Source: an uncultured Alistipes sp. (lineage in GTDB: Bacteria > Bacteroidota > Bacteroidia > Bacteroidales > Rikenellaceae). Taken from it: DNA of 64,000 bases. The notes under the pieces were generated by a model. The model was not told the origin of the DNA. It saw only the letters and a program-made list of their open reading frames with translations, and ran no database searches. The stretch is from the NCBI GenBank assembly GCA_944321945.1, contig CALUNE010000002.1, positions 1 to 64,000 of the forward strand, written 5' to 3'. Numbering within the stretch: the first letter of the stretch is position 1; every line of letters begins with the position of its first letter. Positions 37,190-59,249 of the stretch are shown here, one piece after another. The position numbers and the translations under genes were made by a program.

Positions 37190-37293
37190 ACAAAATCAAT
37201 ATTGGATTGCACAAAATCAAAGGTTATTTGAGCGGTTTTAAAAATCAATTCTTCAATTCTCGGGGTCGCTCCGCAGGCTTATCGGTACTTTTG
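37190..37293 (+). promoter_or_regulatory. Unit A promoter with 21-base-period direct repeat
   Basis: ACAAAATC occurs at 37190-37197 and again at 37211-37218, a direct repeat with a 21-base period (two helical turns). After a gap of 67 bases comes TACTTTTG (37286-37293), a TAnnTTTG -7 box. No TTTG -33 element sits at the usual place, so activation by a bound protein seems necessary. The same layout occurs in front of the other two heparan sulfate units. Predicted start is near 37300. Confidence 0.75.
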
Positions 37294-37333: not shown

Positions 37334-38530
37334 ATGAGAAAAAACCTCCTTCTGTTTACGGGACTTTTTTCCCTTTTTGTGCTGGGCTCCTGCCGTACGG
37401 AAACCGATCCGAAGCTTGCATGCGTGAAGCATGCGATCGATGTTGCACAGTCGCAACTGGAGCTTTCGTCGGCCGAGTTCGATTCGCTGCCCGGTTTCCC
37501 GCGGTCGCTGATGCCCAAGTTCAAGGTCGTCGACGCCAAGGACTGGACCAGCGGTTTCTACCCCGGGACGCTCTGGGAAGCCTACCGCCTGACGGGCGAC
37601 GAGCACCTGCGCGCCGAAGCCGAGAAATTTACCGCACGCCTCGAAGGCATCCAATATTATAAGGGTACGCACGACCTGGGCTTCATGGTCTTCTGCAGCT
37701 ACGGACAGCAGCAGCGGACGCTGCACGACGCCCATTCGGCCGAAGTGATCGTCGAGGCGTCGAACAGCCTCATCTCGCGCTGCGATTCCACCATCGGACT
37801 GATCCGCTCGTGGGACTTCGGCGAGTGGAACTACCCGGTGATCATCGACAACATGATGAATCTCGAGATGCTCTTCTGGGCCTCGAAACACACCGGCGAT
37901 CCGAAATACCGCGACGTGGCCGTGCGCCATGCCGACCTCACGCTCAAGAACCATTTCCGCGAGGATGCCAGCTCCTATCACGTGGTGAGCTACAACGACG
38001 ACGGAACGGTCGAAAGCCGCGGCACGTTCCAGGGCTATGCCGATTCGTCGGCCTGGGCCCGCGGACAGGCTTGGGGTCTCTACGGCTATACGATGTGCTA
38101 CCGCGAGACGGGCGATACGAAGTATCTGGACCATGCGCGCCGCATCGCATCGTTCATCATGAACCATCCCCGCACGCCGGCCGATCTGATTCCCTACTGG
38201 GACTACGATGCGCCGGACATTCCCGATGCACCGCGCGATGCATCGGCTGCGGCGGTGATGGCGTCGGCACTCTTCGAACTCTCGACGCTGGTTCCGGACG
38301 AGGAGGGCCGCGGCTATTTCGACCGGGCCGAGACGATGCTCATGAATCTCTCGTCGGATGCCTATCTGGCGCCGGCGGGCACCAACGGCGGCTTCATTCT
38401 TCTGCACAGCGTCGGCCACCTGCCGGCCCGGAGCGAGATCGACACGCCGCTCAATTATGCGGACTACTACTATCTGGAGGCCATCGACCGTTACCTTGCC
38501 CTGCGAGGGGTCGATCCGCAGCAGCTTTGA
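37334..38530 (+). CDS. GH88 unsaturated glucuronyl hydrolase
   Basis: A 398-residue lipoprotein (lipobox LGSC, Cys20) with the alpha/alpha-barrel of GH88. It removes the 4,5-unsaturated uronate left at the non-reducing end by polysaccharide lyases, by hydration of the double bond. Asp114 in THDLGF and Asp172 in IIDNMMNLEML fit the two catalytic aspartates of Bacillus UGL. The protein probably faces the periplasm. It is the first gene of unit A and precedes a PL12-type lyase, an SGBP, SusC and SusD. The product rearranges spontaneously to the KduI substrate, linking this locus to kduI/kduD. Preference for 2-O-sulfated or unsulfated uronate cannot be read. Confidence 0.92.
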   Translation: MRKNLLLFTGLFSLFVLGSCRTETDPKLACVKHAIDVAQSQLELSSAEFDSLPGFPRSLMPKFKVVDAKDWTSGFYPGTLWEAYRLTGDEHLRAEAEKFTARLEGIQYYKGTHDLGFMVFCSYGQQQRTLHDAHSAEVIVEASNSLISRCDSTIGLIRSWDFGEWNYPVIIDNMMNLEMLFWASKHTGDPKYRDVAVRHADLTLKNHFREDASSYHVVSYNDDGTVESRGTFQGYADSSAWARGQAWGLYGYTMCYRETGDTKYLDHARRIASFIMNHPRTPADLIPYWDYDAPDIPDAPRDASAAAVMASALFELSTLVPDEEGRGYFDRAETMLMNLSSDAYLAPAGTNGGFILLHSVGHLPARSEIDTPLNYADYYYLEAIDRYLALRGVDPQQL

Positions 38531-38559
38531 CAAGCCAAAACCCTAAAACCATTAATCAT

Positions 38560-41478
38560 ATGAAACGAATCTTTACGAAGATCTCGGTGCTGTGTATTGT
38601 CTCTGCCGCCGTGTTGACAACGGGGTGTCTGGGCGACGAAATCCGCGGTACCGAGGACAGCAATGGTTCGCAGACGACCGAATCGACGATTCCGGGCAAC
38701 AGTGTGATCGATGCCCGGGTCTTCGAGGCGTTGAATCTCGAACTTCCGGAGCTGGCCGCCGTGAAGGCGTATTATGAGTCCGATCAGTACTATCTGGCGG
38801 CCGAGGCGCTGCTGAACTACTACCGGACGCGGTCTCTTGCGAACAACAACGTCAACCTGATCGCGCCGACGATCACGGCACAGGAGCAGGCCCGGGCCGA
38901 CTGGGCGCTTCCGGTCACGGGCGGCAATCAGGACGGCTATCGCTTCTGGGTCGAGAATTATCTCGACGGCGACAAGCCCTACTCCTATCAGAACGGCACG
39001 AAACTCGACTGGACGGCCCGCTCGACGGCCGAGACCGAGGAGCGTTTCCGCCTGCACCGCCTGCAGTGGATGGTCCCGCAGGGCAAGGCCTACCGCACGA
39101 CGCTCGACGAGAATTACGTCACCTCGTGGATGTCGGTCTACGAGAGCTGGCTGGAGACCTTCCCGCTGCCGGAGGGCGACTACGATTTCGAGGCCGATCC
39201 TTCGGGACAGCCCGAGGAGGTGCGCACGGCCCTCTATGCCTGGCGTCCGATCGACGTGTCGTACCGTCTGGAGGATCAGTGCGATCTGATCTATTACTTC
39301 ATGCAGTCCTCGTCCTTCACGCCGCAGCTGCTCTCCTCGTTCCTGGCGAACGTGGCCGAGCAGGCCGAACACGTGATGGGGCACTATTCGGAGGATTCGG
39401 CCGCACTGGCACAGGAGTCCTATGCGGTCTATCGTGCGGGCACGATCTTCCCGGAGATGAAACGGGCTGCCGAGTGGGTCAAGAGCGGATCGGTGGCGAT
39501 GAACGACGGCGTGGATATCTCGATTTTCGACCTTCTGAACCTCTCCTACGGCGGTCTTTCGAAGGTGGCATCGGCCTATGCCGCGGGGGATTACCGCGTG
39601 GCCCTGCAGGAGCTGCTCAACAGCTACCGCTCGCGGACCCACGGCCTGAATCCCAACGTGAACGTCAACAGCGATGCGGCGACCGCCAACGAGCAGAACT
39701 GGGCGAACTACGCCTTCCGCGAGAACGGCTACCGTTTCTATGTGAACAACTATTACGATGCGGCGGCCGGGGCGAATGTTCCCTATTCGTACATGAATGC
39801 CGACGGTACGGGCATCGACTGGACGCTCTGCCCGACGGGCGAGCAGGAGCAGCGCTACCAGCTGCACCGCCACCAGTGGATGATCATGCAGGGCAAGGCC
39901 TACAACACGACGCACGACGAGCGTTACGTCGAGAACTGGAAGGAGGTCTACGGCGACTGGCTGCGTCAGAATCCCAAACCCGAGCAGGGCACCGACGTGA
40001 CCAACTCGCCGAACTGGCGGCCGCTGGACGTTGCGGCGCGCGTGATCGACCAGTGCGGTCTGCTGGAGTACTACCAGAACTCGGAGAACGTGACGGAGGA
40101 GTGGCTCTCGACGGTGCTGAAGGCCTTCGACGAGCAGGTGAACCACATCATGAACAACTACTCGACGACCTCGAACCATCTGATCACGCAGGCCCAGGCG
40201 GTGACCTTCGCCGGGATGCTCTTCCCCGAGCTGAAGAACGCCGAGACGTGGCGGACGAACGGTCCGGGGGTCCTCGGACAGCAGGTGACGGCCCAGTACT
40301 TTCCCGACGGATGGCTCAAGGACGGTGACCTTCACTACCATATTTCGAGTATCGCCGATTTCCGGCTGGCGCTGCTCGTGGCCCAGCAGTGCGGTTATGA
40401 GAGCAGCTTCCCGGAGAGCTATCTGGAGTCGATGCGCAAGATGACGAACGTGGTGATGAACATGATCTACCCGGACTATACGGTGCCGAACATGGCCGAC
40501 ACGCGTCGCGCCACGTGGACGCAGAGCGTTCTGACGCGCAATCTGACGCAGTACAGCCAGCTCTTCCCCGACGACCAGTCGTTGTTGTGGATGGCCACGG
40601 GCGGAGCCCAGGGTACGCAGCCCACGGCCAAGGCGGTGACCTTCCCCGACGGCGGCTACTACGTTCTGCGTACCGGCTGGACGATGCAGGACATGATGAT
40701 GGTGCTGCAGAACACGCCTGACGGACCGAAGGAGCAGTGGCACCGCCAGTCGGACAACAATACCTTCGAACTCTGGGTCAAGGGCCGCAATTTCTTCCCC
40801 GATTCGGGTGCGGGCTCCTACGGCGGCAACTCGTCGTCGAACTCGATCCGTTCGCGCTATGCCGCCTCGAAGGCCCACAACACGATGACGCTCGACGAGA
40901 AGAACGTCTCCAGCGACGGCCGCATGCTCAAGCAGGAGTCGAAATCGACCTCGTCGTATGGCTACGAGGTGCTGGTGCTGGAGAACCCCTCGTATGAGGG
41001 TCTGACCCACCGCCGGACGGTCTTCCTGGTCGACGACAAGTTCTACGTGATCCTCGACGAGGGTTACGGCTCGGCCGAGGGTACGGTCAACCTGAACTTC
41101 AACATCACCGAGGGTTCCGACGCGCAGGTCGTGCTGGACAAGGACGGCATGGGCTTCCATACGGCCTTCAACGACAGCAACAACCTCTTTGTGCGGACCG
41201 TGTCGGACCAGACGGCCAGCTTTGCCGAGAAGTCGGGCTTCGTGGCCTACAACATCGTGACCGACACCTACAAGGAGATCTCGCGCAAGGCCTACCGTCT
41301 CGACGTGGCGAAGCGTGCGGAGGATGCGGCGGTGCGCTACGTGACGCTGCTCTATCCGACGGCGGATGCCACGGCCGTACAGCCGTTCGAGGCCGAGCTG
41401 GGCGAGTGGTCGCAGACGGGTGCCTCGCTGACGGTGCGCGTCGACGGAAAGAGCTACAACCTCTCTTATACGCTGTAA
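38560..41478 (+). CDS. PL12-type heparan sulfate lyase with duplicated helical domain
   Basis: A 972-residue lipoprotein (lipobox TTGC, Cys23), about 300 residues longer than normal PL12 heparinase III. The excess is a tandem copy of the N-terminal helical barrel. Copy 1 (about 55-315) and copy 2 (about 320-575) share WTx..E..RxxLHRxQWMxxQGKAY and W-RPxDV. Copy 2, joined to the C-terminal beta-sandwich (about 690-972), keeps the PL12 catalytic trio: Asn539 (SNHL), Tyr593 (LHYHI) and His728 (EQWHRQ). In copy 1 the Asn is replaced by Ala281. Copy 1 is therefore probably a binding or structural domain. As a surface lipoprotein between GH88 and the SGBP it may make the first cuts in heparan sulfate. 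Family assignment is by resemblance to heparinase III. Confidence 0.82.
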   Translation: MKRIFTKISVLCIVSAAVLTTGCLGDEIRGTEDSNGSQTTESTIPGNSVIDARVFEALNLELPELAAVKAYYESDQYYLAAEALLNYYRTRSLANNNVNLIAPTITAQEQARADWALPVTGGNQDGYRFWVENYLDGDKPYSYQNGTKLDWTARSTAETEERFRLHRLQWMVPQGKAYRTTLDENYVTSWMSVYESWLETFPLPEGDYDFEADPSGQPEEVRTALYAWRPIDVSYRLEDQCDLIYYFMQSSSFTPQLLSSFLANVAEQAEHVMGHYSEDSAALAQESYAVYRAGTIFPEMKRAAEWVKSGSVAMNDGVDISIFDLLNLSYGGLSKVASAYAAGDYRVALQELLNSYRSRTHGLNPNVNVNSDAATANEQNWANYAFRENGYRFYVNNYYDAAAGANVPYSYMNADGTGIDWTLCPTGEQEQRYQLHRHQWMIMQGKAYNTTHDERYVENWKEVYGDWLRQNPKPEQGTDVTNSPNWRPLDVAARVIDQCGLLEYYQNSENVTEEWLSTVLKAFDEQVNHIMNNYSTTSNHLITQAQAVTFAGMLFPELKNAETWRTNGPGVLGQQVTAQYFPDGWLKDGDLHYHISSIADFRLALLVAQQCGYESSFPESYLESMRKMTNVVMNMIYPDYTVPNMADTRRATWTQSVLTRNLTQYSQLFPDDQSLLWMATGGAQGTQPTAKAVTFPDGGYYVLRTGWTMQDMMMVLQNTPDGPKEQWHRQSDNNTFELWVKGRNFFPDSGAGSYGGNSSSNSIRSRYAASKAHNTMTLDEKNVSSDGRMLKQESKSTSSYGYEVLVLENPSYEGLTHRRTVFLVDDKFYVILDEGYGSAEGTVNLNFNITEGSDAQVVLDKDGMGFHTAFNDSNNLFVRTVSDQTASFAEKSGFVAYNIVTDTYKEISRKAYRLDVAKRAEDAAVRYVTLLYPTADATAVQPFEAELGEWSQTGASLTVRVDGKSYNLSYTL

Positions 41479-41499
41479 ACCTAAAACTGCAAAACGAAG

Positions 41500-43620
41500 A
41501 TGAAATCACTGTTTCGAAATACAAGCCTTGCCGTGCTGAGCCTGCTCTGCGCGGCGGCCTTCACGGCCTGTGAAGAGGACGAGACATCGAGCGGCGGTCT
41601 GGAACTCTACTACGCGACGGTCGTCAACATCGGTCCTTCGATGCTCTTCAATTCGGATGCCCCGACCTATTACGGTCCGGCACCGTCGGACTTCTCGATC
41701 ACGGCCATCACGCTCGACGATGCGGCGATTGCCAGCGAGAGTTTCTCGATCAATGCCGCGACGGGCGTCGTATCGATCACCAATACCGACGATCTCAAGC
41801 CGGGCGTCTACAAACTGACCATCACGTGCCTTTCGGGCGGCGCCTACCATACGTTCAAGGATCTCTTCACGGTGCAGATGTCGCCCGCCACGCCCGAGGC
41901 GCTGGAGGTCAGCTCTCCGACGCTCGAAATTCCCTACGCCGACCTGGAGACGAGCGAAGCCAAGGTGACGGTTCAGCCCGTCGGCGAATCGGTGTCGATC
42001 CAGAGCTATGCGCTGGTTCAGCCCGAGGGTCAGGAGTACTTTGCCATCTCGCTCAACGGCGATGTCACGCTCAACGCCAATTTCAAGGGTGAGGTGATGC
42101 CGGGCAACTACGCCCTTCCGATCACGGTGAAGACCTATGCCGGCGAGATGACCTACGAGGGTCTGCTTACGGGGCGCATCACCAGCCTTCCGCTTTCGGT
42201 GAGCTATCCGACCTCGGCGGGCCGCATCGAGACCAATATGGCCTTCCAGAGCACGACGCCGACGCTGAAGGGTTCGCCCGACGAGGTGGTGTGGACGATC
42301 CGCCAGATCCGCCCGAGCGAAGGAAGTCCGGAGACGGATCTGATCAAGATCGACCCCGCGACGGGTGTCATATCGGTCGATGCGGGGAACAATCTTCCCA
42401 TCGATGCCGTCTATACGCTGGATCTGACGGTGACGAACAGCTTCGGATCGGCCGATTTCGACGGCGCCTTCACGCTGACGGTCGTCGACTACATCGAACC
42501 CATCGATGCCTCGACCTTCGGCTACGAACCCGTTGAGGCGATCCAGGGCGGCGAATTCACGGCCGAGAAGCGTGCCGGATTCGTCGGTGACGAGGTGACG
42601 TTCGCCTTCGGAACACTGCCGGCCGAGGTCGACGGACAGATCTCGATCGACCAGACGACGGGCAAGATCACGGCCGCCAAGGGACATTCGATTCCGCTGG
42701 GCAGCTACGAGATTCCGGTCGTAGCCTCGAACCTGAAGGGCCAGGCCGAGACCACGCTCAAGCTGACCGTGGGCGAGAATCCCTACTACTTCACGACGAT
42801 CCACTACGGCAACAACCTGGGTCTGACCCCGGCCGAGAACTACGCCAGCCAGTACCGCTGCCCGACGTCGGGCGATCTGACGTCGCTCGTACTCACCCCG
42901 ACGACCGATGCCAAACCGGGTACGGAGCTGACCTGGTCGATCAAGATCAAGCAGCAGTGCTCGGGAACGACCATCGATTCGCAGACGGGTGCCATCTCGT
43001 TCACGTCGAAGGGCTTCAAGGCCAACAACGGCGGTCTGATTCTCGTGACGGCCACGGCCGGCAAGGGAAAGGTCGGCGAGACTTCGGTGACGGTTCCGGT
43101 CTTCTTCTCGTTCATCCAGGCCATGAGTGGCGTGACGGTTCACTATACGCCGTTCGTCTTCCAGGTGAATCCGCGCACGGGCGGCACGTCGGCCGTTCCG
43201 ACCATCGAGGGCGTCGATCCGTCGCTCTTCCTGATGGACTATCGCCGGACGTTCAACTACTACAACTTCAACGGTCCCGCGTCGCATCTCGACGGACAGC
43301 CGTCGGCCGGCGGATCGTTCATGTACAGCGTCTGGAGCTCCTATTTCACGAGCATCGGCAGCGCAACGGTCAATACGGGGTCGAAGGATCCGGTATCCTA
43401 CTACTCGAATGCGTCGCGACTGAGTTCGGCACTGTGCTACGTCGATCCGACGACGAAGGCACTGGTTGTCAACCCGAACAAGTGGGTCGATGCCAACGGC
43501 GTGGCAGCCAACGGCGCGATGCTGGGTCAGATGACCTTCGTGACCAACGGCAACCAGAGCGGTATCAACAACGGTTCGCAGATCTTCCCGCTGTGGGTAT
43601 GGTTCGACGAGAAATTTTAA
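41500..43620 (+). CDS. Surface glycan-binding protein (DUF4958-like)
   Basis: A 706-residue lipoprotein (lipobox FTAC, Cys24) built of several Ig/cadherin-like beta-sandwich units recognisable by repeated SFSINAATGVVSI, IKIDPATGVISV and ISIDQTTGKITA segments. A distinct C-terminal domain is rich in aromatic residues (FNYYNFNG, MYSVWSSYF). This architecture and its position before SusC/SusD match the heparin-binding surface protein of the B. thetaiotaomicron heparin locus. It probably captures heparan sulfate on the cell surface for the lyase and the SusCD complex. No enzymatic motif is visible. It starts 21 bases after the lyase gene. Confidence 0.82.
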   Translation: MKSLFRNTSLAVLSLLCAAAFTACEEDETSSGGLELYYATVVNIGPSMLFNSDAPTYYGPAPSDFSITAITLDDAAIASESFSINAATGVVSITNTDDLKPGVYKLTITCLSGGAYHTFKDLFTVQMSPATPEALEVSSPTLEIPYADLETSEAKVTVQPVGESVSIQSYALVQPEGQEYFAISLNGDVTLNANFKGEVMPGNYALPITVKTYAGEMTYEGLLTGRITSLPLSVSYPTSAGRIETNMAFQSTTPTLKGSPDEVVWTIRQIRPSEGSPETDLIKIDPATGVISVDAGNNLPIDAVYTLDLTVTNSFGSADFDGAFTLTVVDYIEPIDASTFGYEPVEAIQGGEFTAEKRAGFVGDEVTFAFGTLPAEVDGQISIDQTTGKITAAKGHSIPLGSYEIPVVASNLKGQAETTLKLTVGENPYYFTTIHYGNNLGLTPAENYASQYRCPTSGDLTSLVLTPTTDAKPGTELTWSIKIKQQCSGTTIDSQTGAISFTSKGFKANNGGLILVTATAGKGKVGETSVTVPVFFSFIQAMSGVTVHYTPFVFQVNPRTGGTSAVPTIEGVDPSLFLMDYRRTFNYYNFNGPASHLDGQPSAGGSFMYSVWSSYFTSIGSATVNTGSKDPVSYYSNASRLSSALCYVDPTTKALVVNPNKWVDANGVAANGAMLGQMTFVTNGNQSGINNGSQIFPLWVWFDEKF

Positions 43621-43629
43621 CCTAACTGA

Positions 43630-46600
43630 ATGAAATCTATGAAACAGATATTGAACCGGGCATTCGGGCTGAGAGGGGTTTTGACCCTTCTCGCCCTGAC
43701 GGTGGTCTTCGCGGCCACGGCCCAGAACAAGATAACGGGAAAGGTGACCGACGAGAACGGACAGCCGGCCATCGGAGCCAACGTCGTGGTGAAGGGCACG
43801 ACGCAGGGCGTCTCGACGGACCTCAAGGGACAGTATGCTCTCTCGGTGAAGAAGGGGGCCGTGCTGGTCTTCTCCTACCTGGGCTACAAACCGCAGGAAA
43901 TCACCGTGGGGGCGCAGACGAAGATCGACGTGCGTCTGGAGCCCGAAGCCAACGTGATGGATGAGGTGGTCGTGGTGGGTTACGGCGCGCAGAAGCGCAG
44001 CGACCTGACGGGAGCCATTGCTTCGGTTTCGGCCAAGGATGTCGAGGGTTTCAAGTCGGGATCGGTCATGGAGGCGCTGGGCGGCCAGATCGCCGGTGTG
44101 CAGATCACGGCGACGGACGGTACGCCGGGTGCGGGCTTCGACATCAAGATCCGCGGTATCGGCTCGGTCAACGGCGAGACCACGCCGCTCTATATCGTCG
44201 ACGGATTCCAGGTCGACAACATCGACTACCTGTCGAACTCGGACATCGCCTCGATCGAGGTGTTGAAGGATGCCTCCTCGTCGGCCATCTACGGATCGCG
44301 TGCGGCCAACGGCGTGGTGATGGTGACGACCAAATCGGGTAAGGTGGGGCGTCCGGTGGTGACCTACAACGGTTCGGCCAGCTACCGGCAGATCTCGAAG
44401 ACGCTCGATCTGCTCACGCCCTACGAGTTCGTGCGGCTGCAGACCGAGGCGTGGCCCGACAAGTTCGGCGACACCTACTACAAGTCGGGCAACGACGACA
44501 ACGGCGTTCCGTACCGTTACCAGACGATCGACGACTATATCGGCGTCGAGGGGATCGACTGGCAGGGTGAGACCTTCCAGCCGACCTGGTCGCAGGATCA
44601 CAACGTCTCGGTGTCGGGCGGTTCGGACAAGACGAAGTACGCCTTCTCGTTCTCGGATTTCCTCGAAAACGGTATCTTCAAGAACAGTGCCTTCAACAAG
44701 ATCACGGCCAAGATGCGCGTGAACCACAGGATCTCGAAACTGCTCTCGATCGACGCCACGGTCAACTACGCCTTTACGGACAAGCGCGGTATGGGAACGT
44801 CGGGTGACAACGGACGTTTCAACATGCTGGGTCAGATTCTGCGGGCCCGTCCGACGGGCGGTCTGCGGATGACCGACGAGGAGCTGCTCAATTCGGCGAT
44901 CGACCCGCTGGAGCTGGAGTCGTCGGAGTCGCTCTCGCAGGTGAACCCGATCAAGCAGGCCGAATCGGTGACCAACACCAAGAAGGCCGAGATGTGGGCC
45001 GGCAACCTGGCGCTGAACTTCAATTTCGGCAAGGGCTGGAGCTTCCGCATGGCCGGTTCGTACAACACGACCAACACGCGCAACTACCAGTTCTACTACG
45101 ACGGCTCGAAGGAGGCCTACCGCAACGGCCAGACCCCCTACGGTTCGACGCAGATGACGCGCGACGTGCGCTGGACGAACTTCAACTATCTGACCTACAA
45201 ATATAACCAGAAGAACGGGCATGCGTTCGACGTGATGCTGGGTCAGGAGACCTCGTTCCGCGGTACGGAGTATCTGAAGGGTCAGTCGACCGACTTTCCG
45301 TTCGACAACCTGGGCAACGACAACCTGGGGCTGGGCGCCACGCCGAGCCAGGTGACCTCGTCGCGGTCGGACAACCTGCTGATCTCGTTCTTCGCGCGCG
45401 GCAACTACAGCTACAAGGACCGCTACCTCTTCACGGCGACGATCCGTGCCGACGGTTCGACGGTCTTCTCGAAGAACAACAAGTGGGGATACTTCCCGTC
45501 GTTCTCGGCAGCCTGGCGGATCTCGGAGGAGCCCTTCATGAAGCATCAGGATGTGATTTCGAACCTCAAGCTGCGTGCCGGCTGGGGTGTCGTGGGCAAC
45601 GACCGCATTACGAACTACCTCTCGCTGACGCTCTATACGCAGAACAAGTACGGCTACGGCAACAGCCTCATCACGGTGCTGTCGCCCAAGCAGCTGCCGA
45701 ACGAGGACCTCAAGTGGGAGGCTTCGCAGAGTACGAACCTCGGTATCGATCTGGGTCTGTTCCGCAACCGGCTGAACATCACGGCCGACCTCTTCCTCAA
45801 GGATACGAAGGACCTGCTTATGGAGGCGAATAAGTCCAATGTTTCGGGCTTCAAGACGCAGTGGCAGAACGTGGGCAAGATCCGCAACAAGGGTCTCGAA
45901 CTGGCGATCAACTCGACGAATATCGCCTCGCCGAGCGGCTTCAGCTGGACGACGGACTTCAACATCTCGTTTATCCGCAACGAACTGCTGGCTCTGGCCA
46001 ACGGTAATGCGTCGACGAGTGTTCCGGCCGGATGGAACAGCGACTATACGAACGATGACTATACGGCTATCGTGGGACAGTCGCTGGGTCTGATCTACGG
46101 CTACCAGTTCGACGGAGTATACCAGTCGTCGGATTTCGTGGTCGATGCGGCCACGGGCGAAACCCGTCTGCGCGAGGGTGTCGTGGACATGTCGGAACAC
46201 TATACGAGCGGTGAATTCGGTCCGGGCGTGGTGAAGTACAAGGATGTGGACGGCGACGGCAAGATCACGACCAACGACCGTACGGTGATCGGCAACGGTA
46301 CGCCGAAGTGGTACGGCGGTATCACCAACACGTTCTCCTACAAGGGTGTCGACCTGAGCTTCATGTTCCAGTTCAACTACGGCAACAACGTTTACAATGC
46401 CACGCGCATGTACGCTTCGCAGACGCAGGACCAGCGTGCGAACATGATGGCCGAGGTGGCCGACCGCTGGACTCCAACCAATGCCTCGAACAGCGTTCCG
46501 CGCTGGGACGGTTATGTGAAGAACGAGCTCTATTCGCGGTTTATCGAGGACGGTTCGTTCCTGCGACTGAAATCGCTGACGCTGGGCTATACGCTTCCGC

Positions 46601-46797
46601 AGTATTGGACCCGGAAGTTCTATGTCTCGAAATTGCGCATCTACTTCACGGCGCAGAATCTCTTCGTGGTGACGGGTTACTCGGGCTACGATCCGGAGGT
46701 GAACATGCGGGCCTCGAACCCGATGACGCCTTCGTTCGACTGGGGCGCCTACCCGCGCAGCAAAGTATACACGATGGGTCTTGACCTGTCCTTCTAA
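43630..46797 (+). CDS. SusC-like TonB-dependent outer-membrane transporter
   Basis: A 1,055-residue SusC-type transporter. After the signal peptide (to about 31, AATAQ) comes a carboxypeptidase-regulatory-like domain (34-105, ITGKVTDENGQPAIGANV). The signature DEVVVVGYGAQKRSDLTGA (111-129) and the plug domain follow, then a large beta-barrel ending in an aromatic-terminated strand (GLDLSF). With SusD it imports heparan sulfate oligosaccharides using energy from TonB/ExbBD. A second ATG three codons in (43639) is an equally possible start. SusD follows 15 bases later. Confidence 0.95.
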   Translation: MKSMKQILNRAFGLRGVLTLLALTVVFAATAQNKITGKVTDENGQPAIGANVVVKGTTQGVSTDLKGQYALSVKKGAVLVFSYLGYKPQEITVGAQTKIDVRLEPEANVMDEVVVVGYGAQKRSDLTGAIASVSAKDVEGFKSGSVMEALGGQIAGVQITATDGTPGAGFDIKIRGIGSVNGETTPLYIVDGFQVDNIDYLSNSDIASIEVLKDASSSAIYGSRAANGVVMVTTKSGKVGRPVVTYNGSASYRQISKTLDLLTPYEFVRLQTEAWPDKFGDTYYKSGNDDNGVPYRYQTIDDYIGVEGIDWQGETFQPTWSQDHNVSVSGGSDKTKYAFSFSDFLENGIFKNSAFNKITAKMRVNHRISKLLSIDATVNYAFTDKRGMGTSGDNGRFNMLGQILRARPTGGLRMTDEELLNSAIDPLELESSESLSQVNPIKQAESVTNTKKAEMWAGNLALNFNFGKGWSFRMAGSYNTTNTRNYQFYYDGSKEAYRNGQTPYGSTQMTRDVRWTNFNYLTYKYNQKNGHAFDVMLGQETSFRGTEYLKGQSTDFPFDNLGNDNLGLGATPSQVTSSRSDNLLISFFARGNYSYKDRYLFTATIRADGSTVFSKNNKWGYFPSFSAAWRISEEPFMKHQDVISNLKLRAGWGVVGNDRITNYLSLTLYTQNKYGYGNSLITVLSPKQLPNEDLKWEASQSTNLGIDLGLFRNRLNITADLFLKDTKDLLMEANKSNVSGFKTQWQNVGKIRNKGLELAINSTNIASPSGFSWTTDFNISFIRNELLALANGNASTSVPAGWNSDYTNDDYTAIVGQSLGLIYGYQFDGVYQSSDFVVDAATGETRLREGVVDMSEHYTSGEFGPGVVKYKDVDGDGKITTNDRTVIGNGTPKWYGGITNTFSYKGVDLSFMFQFNYGNNVYNATRMYASQTQDQRANMMAEVADRWTPTNASNSVPRWDGYVKNELYSRFIEDGSFLRLKSLTLGYTLPQYWTRKFYVSKLRIYFTAQNLFVVTGYSGYDPEVNMRASNPMTPSFDWGAYPRSKVYTMGLDLSF

Positions 46798-46812
46798 AAA
46801 AGCAAACGAACT

Positions 46813-48456
46813 ATGAAAAAAATCTTATTATACGGTTTGTCGGCCCTGGGGCTGCTGTTTGCGGCATCGTGCTCCGATCTGCTGGAGGAGGAGTCGTACG
46901 TGGAGGTCGGCAAGAACAACTATGTGAACACTGCCGGGGAGGCGGAGACGGTGCTGATGGGAATTTACGAGGATCTGACTGATGAGTATATGTATTCGTA
47001 TCATCTGTCGCTGCTGTTCACCATTTCGTCGGACATCGCGCAGTGCGAAGGGAACGTGACGTCGGGATTCCGTGAGATACCGACCAATACGCACAATACG
47101 TCGACGCCACAGATCCTTTATACGTGGCAGAAGCTCTATTCGTCGATCTACGAGGCCAACGACTTCATCGAGACCGTCTCGTCGCGGATGGATTCATGGA
47201 GCGCCTCGAACCGCGAGCTGGCAACGATCTATCTGGGCGAGGCCCGGGCTCTGCGGGCGCTGTTCTACTTCGAACTGGTGCGCTGGTACGGCAACATCGT
47301 GCTGATCACGTCGACCGAGCAGTCGAAACTTCCGGCCACGGAGTACGTGCAGGCCGATCCGAAGGATGTCTATGCCTTCATCGAGGCGGATCTGAAGTAT
47401 GCCTCGGAGGTGCTTCCGTGGGCGGTCGACGATACGAAGCGTTCGTCGAATGCCTATCGGTTCTCGAAGGGTGCGGCGCTGGGACTGCTGGCGAAGGTCT
47501 ACTGCACGTGGGCCGGTTATCCGGTTCGCGACGAGACGAAGTGGGCCGAGGCGGCGAAGGTGGCGCGCCAGGTGGTCGAATCGGGCAAGCACCGCCTGAT
47601 TCCGAACTACGAGACGGTCTGGACGAATACGTGCAACGGCATCTGGGATGCGGGCGAGAGCCTGATCGAGGTCTCGTTCTATTCGCCCACGGGTCTGGAC
47701 AGCGACCAGACGGCCGGACGTATCGGCAAGTGGAACGGCGTGGTGGCCGATGCGGTCGAGGGGCAGCGCGGTCGCAATGCGGCCAACTGGAAGGTTGTCT
47801 ACACCTTCACGCGCGAATGGGAGACGCACAACGACCCGCGCATGAAGATCTCGATTGCCGACTACAAGTACGATTCGTCGAAGGGCGACGGCCCGATCAC
47901 CTACATTTCGACGGTCACCAACCCCACGGAGGACAACCTGAACAAGCAGCGTCAGCTCTTCACGCCGGGCAAATGGGACACGGAGAAGTTCGTGAATTCG
48001 TCGAACTACATCGTCAACAACGACAAGTCGAACATCAACTGGTATGTGCTTCGTTATTCGGACGTGCTGCTGCTGTTTGCCGAAGCGCTGAACGAGTCGG
48101 GCGGTTCGATGGTCGATGCGGTGGATGCGGTCAATGCGGTGCGTCGGCGCGGTTTCGGCGATACGGACCACGACCTCTCGTACGGGCTTTCGCGCGATGC
48201 CTTGCGTGAGGCGATCCGCAAGGAGCGGGCCTACGAACTCTGTTTCGAGGGGCATCGCAAGCAGGATCTGATCCGTTGGGGGATCTATTACAAGACGATC
48301 CTGAGCACGGCCCAGGAGCTGGTCGACTGGTTCTCGAATGCGAACTATACGGTGGCTCGTTTCACGGTGGAGGGGCGCCACGAGCTGCTGCCCATTCCGC
48401 AGCGCGATCTGGACCTGATGACGCAGTGCAAGCAGAATCCCGGGTGGGGCGAATAG
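46813..48456 (+). CDS. SusD-like glycan-binding lipoprotein
   Basis: A 547-residue SusD/RagB family lipoprotein (lipobox FAASC, Cys20), the lid that binds oligosaccharide and delivers it to SusC. The early TPR helices are seen in EAETVLMGIYEDLTDEYMY, and the family C-terminal segment in RDALREAIRKERAYELCFEGHRKQDLIRWG. Length is typical. It is the last gene of unit A and is followed by a strong terminator. Its specificity for heparan sulfate is inferred from the surrounding enzymes. Confidence 0.95.
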   Translation: MKKILLYGLSALGLLFAASCSDLLEEESYVEVGKNNYVNTAGEAETVLMGIYEDLTDEYMYSYHLSLLFTISSDIAQCEGNVTSGFREIPTNTHNTSTPQILYTWQKLYSSIYEANDFIETVSSRMDSWSASNRELATIYLGEARALRALFYFELVRWYGNIVLITSTEQSKLPATEYVQADPKDVYAFIEADLKYASEVLPWAVDDTKRSSNAYRFSKGAALGLLAKVYCTWAGYPVRDETKWAEAAKVARQVVESGKHRLIPNYETVWTNTCNGIWDAGESLIEVSFYSPTGLDSDQTAGRIGKWNGVVADAVEGQRGRNAANWKVVYTFTREWETHNDPRMKISIADYKYDSSKGDGPITYISTVTNPTEDNLNKQRQLFTPGKWDTEKFVNSSNYIVNNDKSNINWYVLRYSDVLLLFAEALNESGGSMVDAVDAVNAVRRRGFGDTDHDLSYGLSRDALREAIRKERAYELCFEGHRKQDLIRWGIYYKTILSTAQELVDWFSNANYTVARFTVEGRHELLPIPQRDLDLMTQCKQNPGWGE

Positions 48457-48579: not shown

Positions 48580-49725
48580 TCAGTCGATCTGCTGCTGGGA
48601 GAATCCGGCGAGGTTGTAGCTGACGGGCTCCGTACTGCCGCCCACGCGATAGATGCCGTATTTGAAGTAGTATCCGGCCTCGTCGTTGCGGCCGATGAGG
48701 ATTTCGCGGTTGTCGACCAGTTTGCGCGAGCGGCCGTCGCAGCGCATCTCGACGTCGAGACGCCCGGGGCGGAGGATCGTTTCGGTCGTACCGCCGTAGC
48801 GGGTCCACGTCACCTCGACGGTGAACTCCACCCAGCAGTCCTTCGGAAACTCGTCGAAGGGCATCTTGCAGGCGATGGTCGAGCACTTGAACTCCGAACG
48901 GACGGGCTGCATCACTTCGGCCTTTTCGGGGTTTGCGTTGCAGCGGTCGTCCTTGTCCGAGAACCAGCGGCGGTCGGAGTTGGCCTTGATGTAGAACCAT
49001 CCGCCCGAGAATCCGAAGGCCAGCGGCGGGTAGCCGCCCTGTTCGACCTTCCATCCGGTGGGTTCTCCGGCCTTGAGCGTGGGGCGCCCCTGACGGTCGG
49101 TTGAGGCGACGGCCCGGTAGACCTTCTCCTTCCTGATGACCACCGTGTCGCTCATGGCGACGAATTCGTGGACGGGGAGCTTCATGACGCGCCCGACGGG
49201 CGAGGTGACGAGCGTGCGGTCGGGCATTCCGTGCCACTGGGCGAAGATCGTCGAGACGCGGCTGTCGAGCTCCGACGGGACGTAGACGGCGAAGACGTAA
49301 CGCCACGAGGAGCCCTGCGGACAGATTCCCTTGCCGTAGTGGTAGACGGTCTTCGTCGTTTGGGCATCGGCATAGGTCCCGGCCGGGAGCGAGGCGAAAT
49401 CGGCGCTTGTGGCATAGCAGTAGGCGAGTTCCGAGCGGCCTTTGGTCTCTCCGGGGGCATATCCGCGCAGGGTGTTGTCGTCGCGTCCGAGGGTGAAGCG
49501 GAATGATGGTTTCCCGGCGTAGGGGCGCGTGTAATCGCGGCACAGCGCCCCTTGCTTGCGGATGCCCACGGCGACCCATTCGCCGTCGATCACCTGCTCC
49601 ATGCGGGCCGAATCGGCCTGGATGTTGACCCGCTCGGGGATGGATTCCAGACTCGGGGTCTGGGCGGCCGCCGGCCATGCGGCCAGCAGCAGCCCGACCG
49701 CCCATCGTGATTTCAGTGTGTTCAT
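48580..49725 (-). CDS. PL13 heparin lyase (heparinase I)
   Basis: A 381-residue PL13 lyase closely resembling Pedobacter heparinase I (about 384 residues). Shared blocks include RVNIQADSA, ETKGRSELAYCYAT, VYHYGKGICPQGSS, IFAQWHG, GWKVEQGGYP, YIKANSDRRW and EILIGRND. It cleaves highly sulfated heparin regions by beta-elimination. His165 in FAQWHG and the Lys355/Tyr359 pair in YYFKYGIYR match the catalytic residues described for this family. A signal peptide (to about residue 22) directs it to the periplasm or beyond. The ATG at 49725 overlaps the stop of the upstream lyase (TGATG). A GTG one codon earlier is less likely. It is the last gene of unit B. Confidence 0.93.
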   Translation of the reverse strand: MNTLKSRWAVGLLLAAWPAAAQTPSLESIPERVNIQADSARMEQVIDGEWVAVGIRKQGALCRDYTRPYAGKPSFRFTLGRDDNTLRGYAPGETKGRSELAYCYATSADFASLPAGTYADAQTTKTVYHYGKGICPQGSSWRYVFAVYVPSELDSRVSTIFAQWHGMPDRTLVTSPVGRVMKLPVHEFVAMSDTVVIRKEKVYRAVASTDRQGRPTLKAGEPTGWKVEQGGYPPLAFGFSGGWFYIKANSDRRWFSDKDDRCNANPEKAEVMQPVRSEFKCSTIACKMPFDEFPKDCWVEFTVEVTWTRYGGTTETILRPGRLDVEMRCDGRSRKLVDNREILIGRNDEAGYYFKYGIYRVGGSTEPVSYNLAGFSQQQID

Positions 49726-51728
49726 CACAGTTCGTATTTGAAGGTGTAGGTTCGGCCGCCGACGCGCACGGCAACCTGGAAACGGTCGGCCGTCGAGTTT
49801 CGGTTGGGAACGATGGCGATCGAGCCCCGGCGCTCGTCATCCTCCGGGGCGATGACGGTCACGATCCAGAGCTCTTCGCCGGCCTGCTTCTCCATCTCGA
49901 CGGCATAGGCCGGACGTTCGGTTTTCTTGCGGTAGGCGTTCGAGACCCATCCCTCCTCCTGCTGGATATGGAGGGGCTTGCAGCCGGAGCTCTTGATGCG
50001 GATGTTGTTGCCGTCGTTGAAGCGGGTGCTGAGCGTTCCGTCCTTGGCGAAGGAGACCGGTGCGGGACAGAGGTTGAAGTGGATGCCGACGGTTCCGGCG
50101 GCTTCGCCCGAGGCGTGGTCGACGATCACCAGCAGACCGTCCTGCGTCGAGAAGAGGGCCCGGCGGTGGGTCAGACCCTTGTAGGAGGGGTTTTCGGTCA
50201 CCAGCAGGGTCTGTTCGGGCGACGTTTCCCAGTGAAGGAGCTTCGATTCGGTGGTTTCGAGATTGCGGTTGTCGAGCGTCAGGGTGTTGTGGACGCGGGT
50301 CTGGCGGAACCAGTTGCGCTGGGCCAGCACGGCGCTGTCGCCGCCGTAGACGTAGCTGCCCGAATCGGGGAAGAAGTTGCGTCCGCGGTGCCAGTAGTCG
50401 AAGGTTCCGTTGTCGGGCTGGTTGTGCCAGAAGGCCGGAGGTCCGGCCTTGACGACGGTGACCGTGGCATCCATGTCCCAACCGGTGCGCAGCGTGTAGA
50501 ATCCCGATTGGGGGAACTGCTGCGAGGTGTAGTCGGGGCGAGCTCCGCGTTGGCCCTCCGAGGCGAACCATTCGAGCTGTCGGTCGTCGGGGAAGACGCG
50601 GCTCCAGCTGCGGAACTGGTTGAGGAGCGAGGCCTTGTCGTGGCTCTTCGTATCGCCGAACATCGGGTTCGAGTAGTCGGGGAAGAGCAGGTTCCACGTC
50701 ACGGTGGTCATCTTGTGGACGGTCTCGACGTAGCTGGCCGGGAATTCCTCCTCGAAACCGTTCAGACGGGCCATGCCGAGGGCCTTGAGGAAGATGTCGA
50801 TGGCGGCGATGTGGTATCCGAAGTCGAGTTCGAACTGCATGCCGTCGGGATAGACCTGCACGCCGATTTCGCGGTTGAGGATCTCGATGCCGCTGCGGCG
50901 CCATTCGGGGGCTTCGCGGAATTCGGGGAAGTAGATGCCGGCGAAGAGCATGCGCTGGGCCTCGAAGAGCAGGTGATTGCCCTTTTCGGAGTAGTTGTTG
51001 AGGACGTGGTCGGCATGCTGGCGGTAGGTGCGCAGGAAGAGGTTCAGGAACCGGGGCGTGAAGCGCGACGACTGGACGGTCAGGGCGAATTCGGTCAGCA
51101 GGTCCTGCAGCCGGCGCCCGGCCTCCATCGGACGCCATGCGAAGCGGATGTTTTCGCGTTCGGCGGCGATCTCCTCCTGCGAGGCGCCGGCGGCCTGCAG
51201 CCGTTCGACGCCGTCCAGCGGATTCTTCTTCACCCAGTCGGTGTACTGGTCGATCCAGGCATCGATGTAGCGGTTGTCGCGGGTCAGGTAGTAGCACTTG
51301 GCGAGCGGGATGAACCAGTAGTGGCGGTGCAGCTGCCAGCGGAGTTCGTTGTCCTTGACGGGCCAGTACCGCCAGTCGATGTCGTCGCCGTAGAAGAAGG
51401 AGGGTTGATAGCCCTTGTGGGCGTAGAACTTGTGTTCGAGGGCTTCGTCGGCCTGACGCTGTTCGAGTTTGCTGACCTTGACGTTCTGGAGGTCGAGCCC
51501 GAAGAGGGCGACGGGCTTGCGCGTGCGGAAATACCGGAGCAGCTCCTTGTCGGCGGCTTCGAAGTTACCCTTGTCGACGGCCCGCTTGACGGCCTTCAGA
51601 CCGGGACGATCGAGGTCGAGCAGGTCGTAGAGTGATTTTTCGTCGCCGAGGGTCGGGACCTCACCGGCCAGCGTCGTGGAGCCGATTGCCAGCAGGGCGG
51701 CGCACAGCGCCATTGCGATTCGTTTCAT
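49725..51728 (-). CDS. PL12 heparan sulfate lyase (heparinase III-like)
   Basis: A 667-residue PL12 lyase of standard length. A signal peptide without lipobox (cleavage near AGEVP, 22) points to the periplasm. The helical domain contains the PL12 block YWPVKDNELRWQLHR (121-135), and the beta-sandwich has GRNFFPDSGSYVYGGD. The catalytic trio of heparinase III is conserved as Asn251 (KGNHLLFEAQR), Tyr305 (FGYHIAAID) and His435 (FWHNQPDN). It cuts low-sulfated glucuronate-containing heparan sulfate. It is the second gene of unit B, 39 bases after another PL12 gene and overlapping the start of the PL13 gene. The two PL12 proteins are clearly related but diverged, so a recent duplication is unlikely. 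Confidence 0.92.
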   Translation of the reverse strand: MKRIAMALCAALLAIGSTTLAGEVPTLGDEKSLYDLLDLDRPGLKAVKRAVDKGNFEAADKELLRYFRTRKPVALFGLDLQNVKVSKLEQRQADEALEHKFYAHKGYQPSFFYGDDIDWRYWPVKDNELRWQLHRHYWFIPLAKCYYLTRDNRYIDAWIDQYTDWVKKNPLDGVERLQAAGASQEEIAAERENIRFAWRPMEAGRRLQDLLTEFALTVQSSRFTPRFLNLFLRTYRQHADHVLNNYSEKGNHLLFEAQRMLFAGIYFPEFREAPEWRRSGIEILNREIGVQVYPDGMQFELDFGYHIAAIDIFLKALGMARLNGFEEEFPASYVETVHKMTTVTWNLLFPDYSNPMFGDTKSHDKASLLNQFRSWSRVFPDDRQLEWFASEGQRGARPDYTSQQFPQSGFYTLRTGWDMDATVTVVKAGPPAFWHNQPDNGTFDYWHRGRNFFPDSGSYVYGGDSAVLAQRNWFRQTRVHNTLTLDNRNLETTESKLLHWETSPEQTLLVTENPSYKGLTHRRALFSTQDGLLVIVDHASGEAAGTVGIHFNLCPAPVSFAKDGTLSTRFNDGNNIRIKSSGCKPLHIQQEEGWVSNAYRKKTERPAYAVEMEKQAGEELWIVTVIAPEDDERRGSIAIVPNRNSTADRFQVAVRVGGRTYTFKYEL

Positions 51729-51767
51729 GTCGATGGTTTTGAGTTTGTCGGTTATCGAGTCGTTGAA

Positions 51768-53843
51768 CTATTTCAGATCGTATTTCCGGCCGTCGATCTT
51801 CACGCGGATGCCGTCTTTGCGTCCGACGGCCTCGATGCGGTGGCCTTCGGCCCGGTCGACGGGCAGCAGCACGGTGATGAAGCGAAGGGTCTGTCCGGGG
51901 CGCTTGTCGGCCGTAAAGGCGCAGGCCGGCCGCGGATGGCGTTCGCGGTAGCGGTACGAGACCCATCCCTCCCGGGGTTCCATCTTTTCGGCGCCGAAGA
52001 CGCGGAGCATCAGATTGTTGCCGTCGTCGTAGCGCGTCGTTACGGAGCAGGCCGCGGAGTCGGCTGCGGGCGATCCCTCGGCCAGATTCCAGTGGAGCAT
52101 GACGCGGCCCGAGGCCTGGCCCTCGGCGCGATCCTCGATGACGAAGAAGCGCCGGTCGACGAACCAGACCGTACGTCGGTGGGTGAGCCCCTCGTAGGAG
52201 GGGTTCTCGACCGTAAGGATGTCGGTCTTCGCGTCGGTCTGCCAGCGGATGCATTTCGAGTCGGTGGTTTCGAGATTCCGGCCGTCGAGCGTCAGGGTGT
52301 TGTGGACGCAGGTCTGGCGGAACCAGTTGCGCAGGTCGTTGACCTCCTTGTCGCCGGCGTAGACGTAGCAGCCCGAGTCGGGCAGGAAGTTGCGTCCGCG
52401 GGACCAGATTTCGAAGGTTCCGTTGTCGGGCTGGCAGTGCCAGAAGCCCTTCGGGCCGGCCTTGAGGATCATCACCGTGGCATTCTGCTCCCAGCCGTTG
52501 CGCAGGACGTAGAATCCCGACGTGGCGTACGCGCGCGAGAGGTAGTCGGGGGCCGAGCCTTCACGGCCCTCGGTGGCGCGCCAGCGGATGAATGCATTGT
52601 CGGGGAAGACCTGCATCCATTCGCGGTAGGTGGCCAGCAGTTGGTCCTTGTCGTGCTGGCGGTTGTCGCTGAAGAGCGGGGTGGTGTAGTCGGGGTAGGA
52701 GCAGTTGAGGTGGACGTCGATCATGCGTTCGACGGTGGCGAGGTATTCGGCGGGGAATTCGCCGCGATACCCGTTGGCATCCATCATCCGCAGCGCCTTG
52801 AAGAAGATGTTGATCGACTCCAGATGGTAGTGCGGGTCGAGTTCGTACTGCATGCCGTCGTCGTAGACCTGGCGGCGGATTTCGCGGTTGAGGATCTCGA
52901 CGCCGGTGGCGCGCCACCGGGCGGCGTCGCGGAATTCGGGGAAGAAGGCGCCGGCGAAGAGCAGTCGCTGGGCCTCGAAGAGCAGATGGTTCCCCGAGGC
53001 GGAGAAGTGGCCGAGGATGTGTTCGGCATGGCGGTGGTAGTTGTCGAGAAACCGCAGAAGGAACTCTCCGTCGAAGGCCCTGGCCGGCAGGAAGTAGAGG
53101 AACTGCTGGATCTGGTATTCGAGCCGGTCGCTCACCTCGAGCGGGCGCCAGGCGAAGAAGACGTTGTCGGCCTGGCTCCAGTCGCCGGATCGTCCCCGGT
53201 CGTACCCATCGAGGGGGTTCTTGCGGATCCAGTCGAGGTATTCGGCGCACCACTCCGCGGCGTAGCGTTCGTCGCCCGAGCGGCGGTAGGCCTTGCCCAT
53301 GGGCACCCACCACTTCATGCGGTGCAGCTGCCAGCGGAGTTCGTTGTCCTTGACGGGCCAGTATTGCCAGTCGATGTCGTCGCCGTAGAAGAACGAGGGC
53401 TGGTATCCCGAGTGGACGAAGAAGCGGTGTTCGAGCGCCTCGTCGGCCCATCGCTGTTCGTCGGCGGAGATCACCACCGAATCGAGATCGACCTCGGGGC
53501 AGACGACGCCTCGGCGCGTACGGAAATATTCCAGCAGCGCCTGGGCGGCGGCTTGGTCATCGCCGGCTGCATGGAGCCGGGCTACGCGTTCGAGCCCCGG
53601 CCGCGAGAGATCCAGCAGGGCAAAGACCGTCGTGTCGGAGGCCATTCCAGCCCGGTTCTCCGGGAGAGCGGCCGTGTCGGGACGCTCCTGGAATCCGGCC
53701 TGGATCGGGCTGCGGCATTCGGTGGAGATCCGCGAGGGGTTTGTTCCGTTTTCGACACGGCTTTCGGTGCGGGCATCGACCGTTCGGAGCGAGGCGAGCG
53801 TCAGCAGGGTCAGCAGCGGAAGGAGCAGTTTCGAGGTTTTCAT
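51768..53843 (-). CDS. PL12 heparan sulfate lyase (heparinase III-like)
   Basis: A 691-residue PL12 lyase leading unit B. The signal peptide (MKTSKLLLPLLTLLTLASL) is followed by an extra polar, probably disordered stretch to about residue 70 that its neighbour lacks. The catalytic residues are present: Asn285 (SGNHLLFEAQR), Tyr339 (PHYHLESIN) and His469 (FWHCQPDN). The PL12 block YWPVKDNELRWQLHR spans 161-175. The start at 53843 is chosen because it begins the signal peptide; the frame is open to 54017 but that region holds the promoter. Different substitutions around the active site compared with the second PL12 suggest complementary sulfation preferences, which is inference. Confidence 0.92.
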   Translation of the reverse strand: MKTSKLLLPLLTLLTLASLRTVDARTESRVENGTNPSRISTECRSPIQAGFQERPDTAALPENRAGMASDTTVFALLDLSRPGLERVARLHAAGDDQAAAQALLEYFRTRRGVVCPEVDLDSVVISADEQRWADEALEHRFFVHSGYQPSFFYGDDIDWQYWPVKDNELRWQLHRMKWWVPMGKAYRRSGDERYAAEWCAEYLDWIRKNPLDGYDRGRSGDWSQADNVFFAWRPLEVSDRLEYQIQQFLYFLPARAFDGEFLLRFLDNYHRHAEHILGHFSASGNHLLFEAQRLLFAGAFFPEFRDAARWRATGVEILNREIRRQVYDDGMQYELDPHYHLESINIFFKALRMMDANGYRGEFPAEYLATVERMIDVHLNCSYPDYTTPLFSDNRQHDKDQLLATYREWMQVFPDNAFIRWRATEGREGSAPDYLSRAYATSGFYVLRNGWEQNATVMILKAGPKGFWHCQPDNGTFEIWSRGRNFLPDSGCYVYAGDKEVNDLRNWFRQTCVHNTLTLDGRNLETTDSKCIRWQTDAKTDILTVENPSYEGLTHRRTVWFVDRRFFVIEDRAEGQASGRVMLHWNLAEGSPAADSAACSVTTRYDDGNNLMLRVFGAEKMEPREGWVSYRYRERHPRPACAFTADKRPGQTLRFITVLLPVDRAEGHRIEAVGRKDGIRVKIDGRKYDLK

Positions 53844-53930: not shown

Positions 53931-54034
53931 CAAAGATACGACAAAGAGCGGAGTTCCTTTATCAGGATTTCGCAATCCTCGGCGGAAAATCTGCAAAGCG
54001 ATTTCAGATTTGTGCAATTCGATGCGGAATTTGT
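53931..54034 (-). promoter_or_regulatory. Unit B promoter with 21-base-period direct repeat
   Basis: On the minus strand ACAAAT (54034-54029) is repeated as ACAAATC (54013-54007), starts 21 bases apart. It is followed after 68 bases by TATCTTTG (53938-53931), a TAnnTTTG box about 88 bases before the start codon. The flanking ATTGCACAAA is shared with the unit A motif. The repeats have one A fewer than those of units A and C. Confidence 0.7.
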
Positions 54035-59247: not shown

Positions 59248-59249
59248 CG

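Follow-up and report, generated by a model that had tools for sequence, protein, structure and literature searches.

A four-unit array of direct repeats in an uncultured Alistipes sp. is probably the operator of a heparan sulfate regulon with three promoters. Its likely reader is a hybrid two-component system (HTCS) regulator encoded directly after one of the three transcription units, and that protein appears to be the counterpart of BT4663, the heparin regulator of Bacteroides thetaiotaomicron. We studied the array in a window of 64,000 nucleotides, the whole stretch of DNA that was analyzed, which corresponds to C2:1-64000 in a draft genome of 2,226,170 bases and 24 contigs. A first-pass annotation of the window had already noticed a repeat in front of three gene clusters, here called units A, B and C. 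The anatomy of the array, its conservation and its co-occurrence with the HTCS are direct observations, as is the orthology of the regulator.

Three promoters with one geometry

Upstream of unit A, ACAAAATC occurs on the plus strand at 37190..37197 (unit 1, kept in nine orthologous promoters) and again at 37211..37218 (unit 2), followed by the box TACTTTTG at 37286..37293. This box matches TAnnTTTG, the −7 consensus of Bacteroidota promoters. Promoter B, also on the plus strand, contains ACAAAATT at 54076..54083, ACAAAATC at 54097..54104 and the box TACCTTTG at 54172..54179. Promoter C lies on the minus strand, with ACAAATTC at 54027..54034, ACAAATCT at 54006..54013 and the box TATCTTTG at 53931..53938. 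Read directly from these coordinates, all three promoters have a direct repeat with a period of 21 bp, and each spans 104 bases, counted from the first A of the repeat through the final G of the box.

The period, the 67 bases between repeat and box at A and the recurrence of the same geometry at B and C all agree with the first-pass annotation. Of the gaps of 68 and 67 bases that it gave for B and C, the second holds and the first does not: measured between 8-mers, the gap is 67 bases in all three promoters, and a value of 68 results if one repeat is counted as a 7-mer. In the nine Alistipes genomes that carry the HTCS, the distance from unit 2 to the box is 67 bases in 26 of 27 promoters and 68 in one.

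Promoters B and C are divergent, and the starts of their first units lie 42 bases apart in the window (54027-54083). The same offset of 42 is found in 10 of 12 Alistipes loci; in the other two it is 32, about one helical turn less. This near-constant offset suggests that the helical phase between the two arrays is kept.

The genes behind the three promoters are those expected of the claimed heparan sulfate operons, each operon being predicted from gene order. Unit A (37334..48456, plus strand) has five genes, encoding a GH88 enzyme (37334-38530), a HepC-like lyase (38560-41478), a BT4661-like surface glycan-binding protein (41500-43620), SusC (43630-46797) and SusD (46813-48456). Unit B (54319..63984, plus strand) has six: a sulfatase (54319-55728), a sulfatase closest to N-acetylglucosamine-6-sulfatase (55768-57522), a weakly CehA/McbA-like protein (57601-59247), a ROK kinase (59244-60182), an MFS transporter with an uncertain start (60134-61447) and a DUF4962/heparinase II-III C-terminal protein (61444-63984). 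Unit C (48580..53843, minus strand) is a row of three lyase genes and thus holds more than a single lyase: the heparinase III/HepC-like gene (53843-51768) is followed by a second HepC-like lyase (51728-49725) and by heparin lyase I (49728-48580). Taken together, the lyases, sulfatases, GH88 enzyme, SusC/D pair, glycan-binding protein, ROK kinase and MFS transporter read as a pathway for heparan sulfate uptake and degradation.

Two details of the gene models deserve mention. An open reading frame at 49677-51635 on the plus strand was considered as a gene of unit A and dropped, as it has no Pfam match and the minus strand codes for lyases there. Separately, about 310 residues precede the main lyase match in the HepC-like protein of unit A (38560-41478), and Hepar_II_III_N is matched by two stretches of this protein, a pattern resembling a partial duplication of the N-terminal part.

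Two weaker units between repeat and box

The first-pass annotation saw two copies of the repeat and, after them, a gap of 67 bases. The two copies are there; the gap is not empty. Matrix scans and shuffles place two weaker units in it, in phase with the first two, at +42 and +63. Promoter A has a degenerate unit 3 at 37232..37239 (GCGGTTTT, preceded by TTTGA) and a degenerate unit 4 at 37253..37260 (TCAATTCT; [T/G]CAATTCT in the orthologues), which ends 25 bases before the box. At the same two offsets, promoter B has ACACGATT (54118..54125, plus strand) and ACAAACTC (54139..54146, plus strand), and promoter C has two degenerate units on the minus strand, AGATTTTC (53985..53992, preceded by TTTGC) and GAAATCCT (53964..53971).

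To score these units we built a matrix from units 1 and 2 and slid it along three families of nine orthologous promoters, one family for each of A, B and C, covering 57 offsets. With the pooled matrix, +42 and +63 were the two best of the 57 offsets in each of the three families (ranks of units 3 and 4, respectively: 2 and 1 in A, 1 and 2 in B, 1 and 2 in C). A matrix drawn from the other families gave ranks of 4 and 1 in A and of 1 and 2 in both B and C, among 53 offsets, with the units at box−54 and box−33. When each family was scanned with its own matrix, units 3 and 4 took the top two ranks in A and C; in B they came first and third, with unit 4 at 3 of 56 and not second. A matrix from Bacteroides-type promoters only, applied to the promoters of the window, performed weakly, ranking units 3 and 4 at 5 and 2 of 53 in A and at 10 and 5 in C. 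Column shuffles gave p values for unit 4 of 0.0005 (A), 0.0013 (B) and 0.0029 (C), and for unit 3 of 0.019 (A), 5e-5 (B, the floor of the test) and 0.0008 (C); taken jointly, the two units gave values between 5e-5 and 1e-4 across these Alistipes families. From these sequence comparisons, the element is better described as a four-unit, in-phase array that ends 25 bp before TAnnTTTG.

The rival description is an operator of two sites, in which one HTCS dimer occupies units 1 and 2 and the similarity at +42 and +63 is a functionless product of chance or of a decayed duplication. Units 3 and 4 are indeed weak, and two sites are what has been published for this family: Ravcheev et al. 2013 (PMC3878776) predicted that HTCS dimers of Bacteroides bind direct repeats from one side of the helix, with an average of 21 bp from one site to the other. 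Such an operator gives no reason for the weak units to fall at the predicted offsets in three Alistipes families, or for units 3 and 4 of promoters A and B to be better conserved than the stretch from unit 4 to the box. For unit 4 of family C, conservation does not exceed that of the same stretch (0.54 versus 0.61).

Specificity of the geometry

In the draft genome the pattern ACAAAWY-N4..34-ACAAAWY has 12 matches. Exactly three of them have the spacing N14, and these are promoters A, B and C, so the geometry occurs nowhere else in the 2.23-Mb assembly. As the assembly is 77.65% complete, a further site in this genome is possible; a 99% complete genome (G023) likewise has only three sites.

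We extended the search to 121 genomes of the genus, nine with the HTCS and 112 without. The repeat plus box, written as ACAAAW-N15-ACAAAW-N67..71-TAnnTTTG, has 29 matches in this set. The nine HTCS genomes account for 25 of them, every one at the three promoters, and the remaining four are spread over 3 of the 112 other genomes. The same pattern reversed, our control, has one match in the 121 genomes. Even in its loosest form (ACAA, ACAA and box), all 26 matches in the nine genomes are at A, B or C promoters. The repeat pair without the box is unspecific, with ACAAAWY-N12..16-ACAAAWY matching 117 of 121 genomes; the distance to the box therefore belongs to the signal.

A similar picture emerges from 55 loci around relatives of heparinase III. 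Near-exact half-site pairs with periods of 12-35 number 42 in these loci, 16 of them at period 21, and in all 16 a box lies 66-68 bases away. The named Alistipes loci used here are not independent of the G genomes, since the same promoter sequences occur in both, and it is this overlap that assigns the G genomes to Alistipes.

The counts from the draft genome, from the 121 genomes and from the loose pattern rule out a chance origin of the three-promoter geometry, as the first-pass annotation had argued, and confirm that the shared element is real. That annotation had also named the finding that would speak against a regulon, namely many such copies in front of unrelated genes. With the box included, the nine HTCS genomes contain none; elsewhere there are four matches, in three genomes without the HTCS, and the pair without a box is abundant.

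The probable regulator next to unit B

The first-pass annotation stated that no suitable regulator is encoded here. This is true of the window and untrue of the contig, on which an HTCS gene occupies positions 64147-68256, starting 147 bases past the window's end. It follows unit B directly, 162 bases behind the last gene of that unit and on the same strand. The predicted protein has the domains Reg_prop, Y_Y_Y, HisKA, HATPase_c, Response_reg and HTH_18, in this order; that is, a propeller with Y_Y_Y, both kinase domains, a receiver and an AraC-type helix-turn-helix (HTH) in one polypeptide, as is characteristic of the HTCS family.

The best PDB match of its sensor is 4a2l/4a2m at 7.5e-177, followed at a distance by a runner-up at 8.4e-77. 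We take 4a2l to be BT4663, the heparin HTCS of B. thetaiotaomicron. Over 1339 aligned positions the protein shares 42% identity with an HTCS from the heparin locus of B. faecis, a protein that in turn hits 4a2l at 1753 bits. With the Alistipes orthologues (88-96%) set aside, the DNA-binding domains of these two are 67% identical, and none of the other HTCS and AraC domains listed exceeds 55%. Judged by both its sensor and its DNA-binding domain, each closest to the BT4663 type, the protein is the Alistipes orthologue of BT4663. The first-pass annotation's expectation of an HTCS or AraC-type reader is supported by this sequence match and by the position of the gene beside unit B.

Orthologues of the HTCS (E <= 1e-200) are present in 9 of the 121 genus genomes. 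The first gene of unit A is found in the same nine genomes at an identity of at least 76% (next best, 54%), and so is the first gene of unit B, also at 76% or above, its remaining matches being far weaker. Repeat and box occur together in 9 of 9 carriers of the HTCS versus 3 of 112 non-carriers. Three of the orthologues are interrupted: the one in G085 is split over two frames (L160/L161, G085:C5:204825-208833), and those in G107 and G087 (L157 and L159) have a stop inside the matched stretch. Either assembly error or decay could account for these breaks.

A different protein could in principle bind part of the array, whether another HTCS, an AraC protein or a global regulator such as Cur, the Crp-like global regulator of Bacteroides. 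The conserved block of promoter A from unit 2 to the box would be a candidate site, as identity there is 0.87-0.97 throughout units 3-4 and their linkers, beyond what similarity between repeats alone requires, and this genome (G000) has 20 HTH_18 matches from which to choose. We nevertheless consider such a reader very improbable. The heparin HTCS co-occurs with the three promoters and adjoins them, and its DNA-binding domain is most like the one in the heparin HTCS of B. faecis, whose promoter has the same repeat.

Heparin promoters outside Alistipes and other HTCS sites

Among 43 non-Alistipes loci around heparinase III relatives, many of which may stop short of the relevant promoter, 10 places qualified when chosen by units 1-2 and the box alone. 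All ten have ACAA or ACAT at box−33, the place of unit 4 (p 0.0006, column shuffle), although they are not ten independent events, as the places are akin to one another and two of them (L063 and L069) are almost identical. The distal gap is 66 bases in seven places and 67 in three, and unit 4 stays at box−33 either way. Because 67 equals 42 plus 25, the proximal unit holds its distance to the box while the distal pair shifts by one base. The gene right after the promoter encodes a GH88 enzyme in six places, a BT4661-like protein in three and a heparinase II/III lyase in one. In B. faecis, the promoter in front of a heparinase II/III gene and the BT4661-like gene after it contains ACAAAAAT, ACAAAATT and then ACAACATA, which starts exactly 33 bases before TACATTTG. 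Unit 3 was not detected in the non-Alistipes promoters (rank 11 of 53; p 0.10).

The four non-Alistipes places that start with a BT4661-like or lyase gene show a further tendency. Their best offset (L051, L052, L087 and L089 pooled) is 44, with box−33 second. An ACAAAG-like copy sits at that offset, 11 bp before unit 4, as it does at L182:14941-14948. This extra copy is out of the 21-bp register.

We also surveyed the surroundings of HTCS genes other than the heparin one. The survey covered 47 stretches with 38 other HTCS or HTCS-like genes from this genome and B. faecis, left out the heparin locus, and searched upstream of 635 boxes for self-similar 13-mers (10 of 13 or more). Pairs at a lag of 21 preceded 35 boxes, whereas the 19 other lags averaged 9.1 (lag 22, 18 boxes); lag 21 was also the highest in two earlier looks at these data, one of which still included the heparin locus. 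Other HTCS promoters therefore share with the Alistipes ones a preference for a 21-bp pair upstream of TAnnTTTG. The lag-21 pairs peak 18-27 bases before the box (11 versus 1.1 per control lag), which is the place of units 3 and 4. By this comparison the heparin promoters appear to combine the usual proximal pair of HTCS promoters, degenerate here, with a strong distal pair added in the same register.

The survey argues against a general rule in two respects. A universal HTCS geometry of 67 bases can be rejected, as the commonest place of the other 21-bp pairs is 18-27 bases before the box. Nor is a universal four-unit array supported: in contrast to the heparin array, other HTCS promoters favor one pair near the box, and further in-phase third and fourth copies are not enriched around the 38 genes, so the four-unit array is not a general feature of HTCSs. 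That extra copies are not enriched elsewhere is what an operator of two sites would lead one to expect. The conservation of unit 4 at box−33 in 10 of 10 non-Alistipes heparin-gene promoters, together with the peak of other HTCS pairs where units 3 and 4 lie, makes that operator unlikely, and we favor the four-unit array.

A degenerate receiver

The receiver of the HTCS has lost three conserved residues. The second metal-binding acid is replaced by Ala1094, the Thr/Ser by Ala1166 and the Lys by Met1188; the phospho-acceptor Asp1136 is retained. At the places of DD, D, T/S and K, the residues expected of a phosphorylatable receiver in this family, the protein thus reads E-A, D, A and M, in a Pfam Response_reg match of 60.1 bits. 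All nine Alistipes orthologues lack the second acid and the Lys, and eight of the nine lack the Thr/Ser. Relatives outside the genus have a canonical receiver in 10 of 10 cases: the B. faecis protein and nine matches that come from eight genomes in a search of 384 of the order, one of the ten being only 34% identical and perhaps a paralogue. The six H, N and G-box residues of the kinase are kept in 8 of 9 Alistipes orthologues, and in the ninth (L157) two of them fall in an alignment gap; the kinase looks intact from these residues.

Of 33 further receivers matched in this genome and in B. faecis, 32 are canonical. Another HTCS-like protein of this genome (L015, G000:C1:100072-103311) has GS, E, T and L at the four places, with Glu at the phospho-acceptor, in a weak alignment of 45.8 bits. 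The heparin HTCS retains the Cys-His pair that one study of BT4663 places at the inhibitory interface between receiver and HTH (PMC11253607).

A 2025 review defines pseudo-receivers as receivers in which one or more of five conserved residues are missing (PMC12632262), and the Alistipes receiver lacks three of the five. As its kinase is apparently intact, the HTCS is best viewed as a kinase fused to a pseudo-receiver. We therefore assign it to the HTCS family by architecture and orthology and do not assume canonical control by phosphorylation. Unlike the pseudo-receivers described in the available text of the review, the Alistipes one is joined to such a kinase, has a defined set of promoters and can be given a likely class of ligand. 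An HTCS example is not named among the pseudo-receivers in that text, and we found no HTCS with a pseudo-receiver in the literature searched.

A model for activation

These features suggest how the regulon may work. The propeller domain would sense heparan sulfate fragments in the periplasm, and the C-terminal AraC-type domains of HTCS dimers would bind half-sites spaced by 21 bp, and so on the same side of the helix. In each array the distal, high-match pair (units 1-2) and the proximal, degenerate pair (units 3-4) would be read in the same register. Dimers on the distal pair would lead to cooperative filling of the proximal pair beside the box, and A, B and C would be activated together; the role of the distal pair would be to load or stabilize the proximally bound protein. 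Only 25 bp separate the end of unit 4 from TAnnTTTG, which puts this unit roughly where a −33 element would be expected, so that protein bound there would be placed to recruit RNA polymerase. Binding by the HTCS, positive control, cooperativity and the occupancy of units 3 and 4 are the parts of this model that we infer.

Class II AraC-type activators, which contact the polymerase, bind half-sites arranged as tandem direct repeats that adjoin the −33/−35 element. The Alistipes system resembles them in its AraC-type HTH, in direct repeats two helical turns apart and in a proximal unit by the presumed place of a −33 element; it differs in the type of promoter, which is that of the Bacteroidota.

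We also weighed the opposite sign of control, in which the HTCS is a repressor that is bound without substrate and released upon sensing. Such a scheme has been drawn for an arabinoxylan HTCS (PMC7815789), and a degenerate receiver could suit a repressor that is released by ligand and independent of phosphorylation. The arrays, however, lie upstream of the box and end 25 bp short of it, with no overlap. Moreover, Gao et al. 2024 (PMC11253607) report that a fragment of BT4663 comprising receiver and DNA-binding domain binds the bt4662 promoter in a phosphorylation-dependent manner, better once phosphorylated. Repression is accordingly hard to credit, and activation remains the reading that we prefer.

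The array and the receiver may be connected. In this tentative scheme, which we regard as possible but would not bet on, the usual setting of DNA affinity by a phosphorylated receiver would be lost; switching would proceed through a conformational change within the chain, or with a receiver that is phosphorylated and unresponsive. The array would have grown to compensate, a third in-phase half-site letting two dimers bind cooperatively. The link between the lost receiver site and the added unit 3 rests on one clade. If true, it would offer a natural pseudo-receiver still joined to its own sensor, kinase and operators, and so a handle on how pseudo-receivers switch.

Discussion

Neither the kind of motif nor a heparin regulon is new, as both were predicted for Bacteroides in 2013 (PMC3878776). 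That study assigned to BT4663 a predicted HTCS_Hep regulon comprising operons BT4662-59, BT4658-52 and BT4675, and the Alistipes promoters agree with the motif described there, with a direct repeat of about 21 bp upstream of heparin/heparan sulfate genes. The likeness to the B. thetaiotaomicron regulon extends to an orthologous regulator and to the target genes, which include heparin/heparan sulfate lyases, among them heparin lyase I, a sulfatase and SusC/D. Alistipes differs in the arrangement of its operons (A, then divergent B and C, with the HTCS after B), in its degenerate receiver and in a four-unit array at a fixed distance from the box, as compared with the motif in the available text of that study.

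Two features look new in the literature searched, supplements and bioRxiv aside: units 3 and 4 in the gap and the degenerate receiver. We found no map of an HTCS operator in the available text of PMC12125979 or PMC7815789, and PMC6874557 concerns engineered promoters. Likewise, the parts of the literature available to the search held no description of where an HTCS sits relative to RNA polymerase.

Among the carbohydrate switches of gut Bacteroides, HTCSs form a major class (PMC11253607). With nearly one geometry at three promoters of a single genome, in nine species and in a Bacteroides-type outgroup, the regulon gives a concrete and falsifiable picture of an HTCS operator. How pseudo-receivers turn on and off has been called a mystery (PMC12632262), and a degenerate receiver in nine Alistipes species, beside relatives with a canonical one, amounts to a natural experiment on pseudo-receiver switching. 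The prediction of regulons for host-glycan foraging in Alistipes would improve as well.
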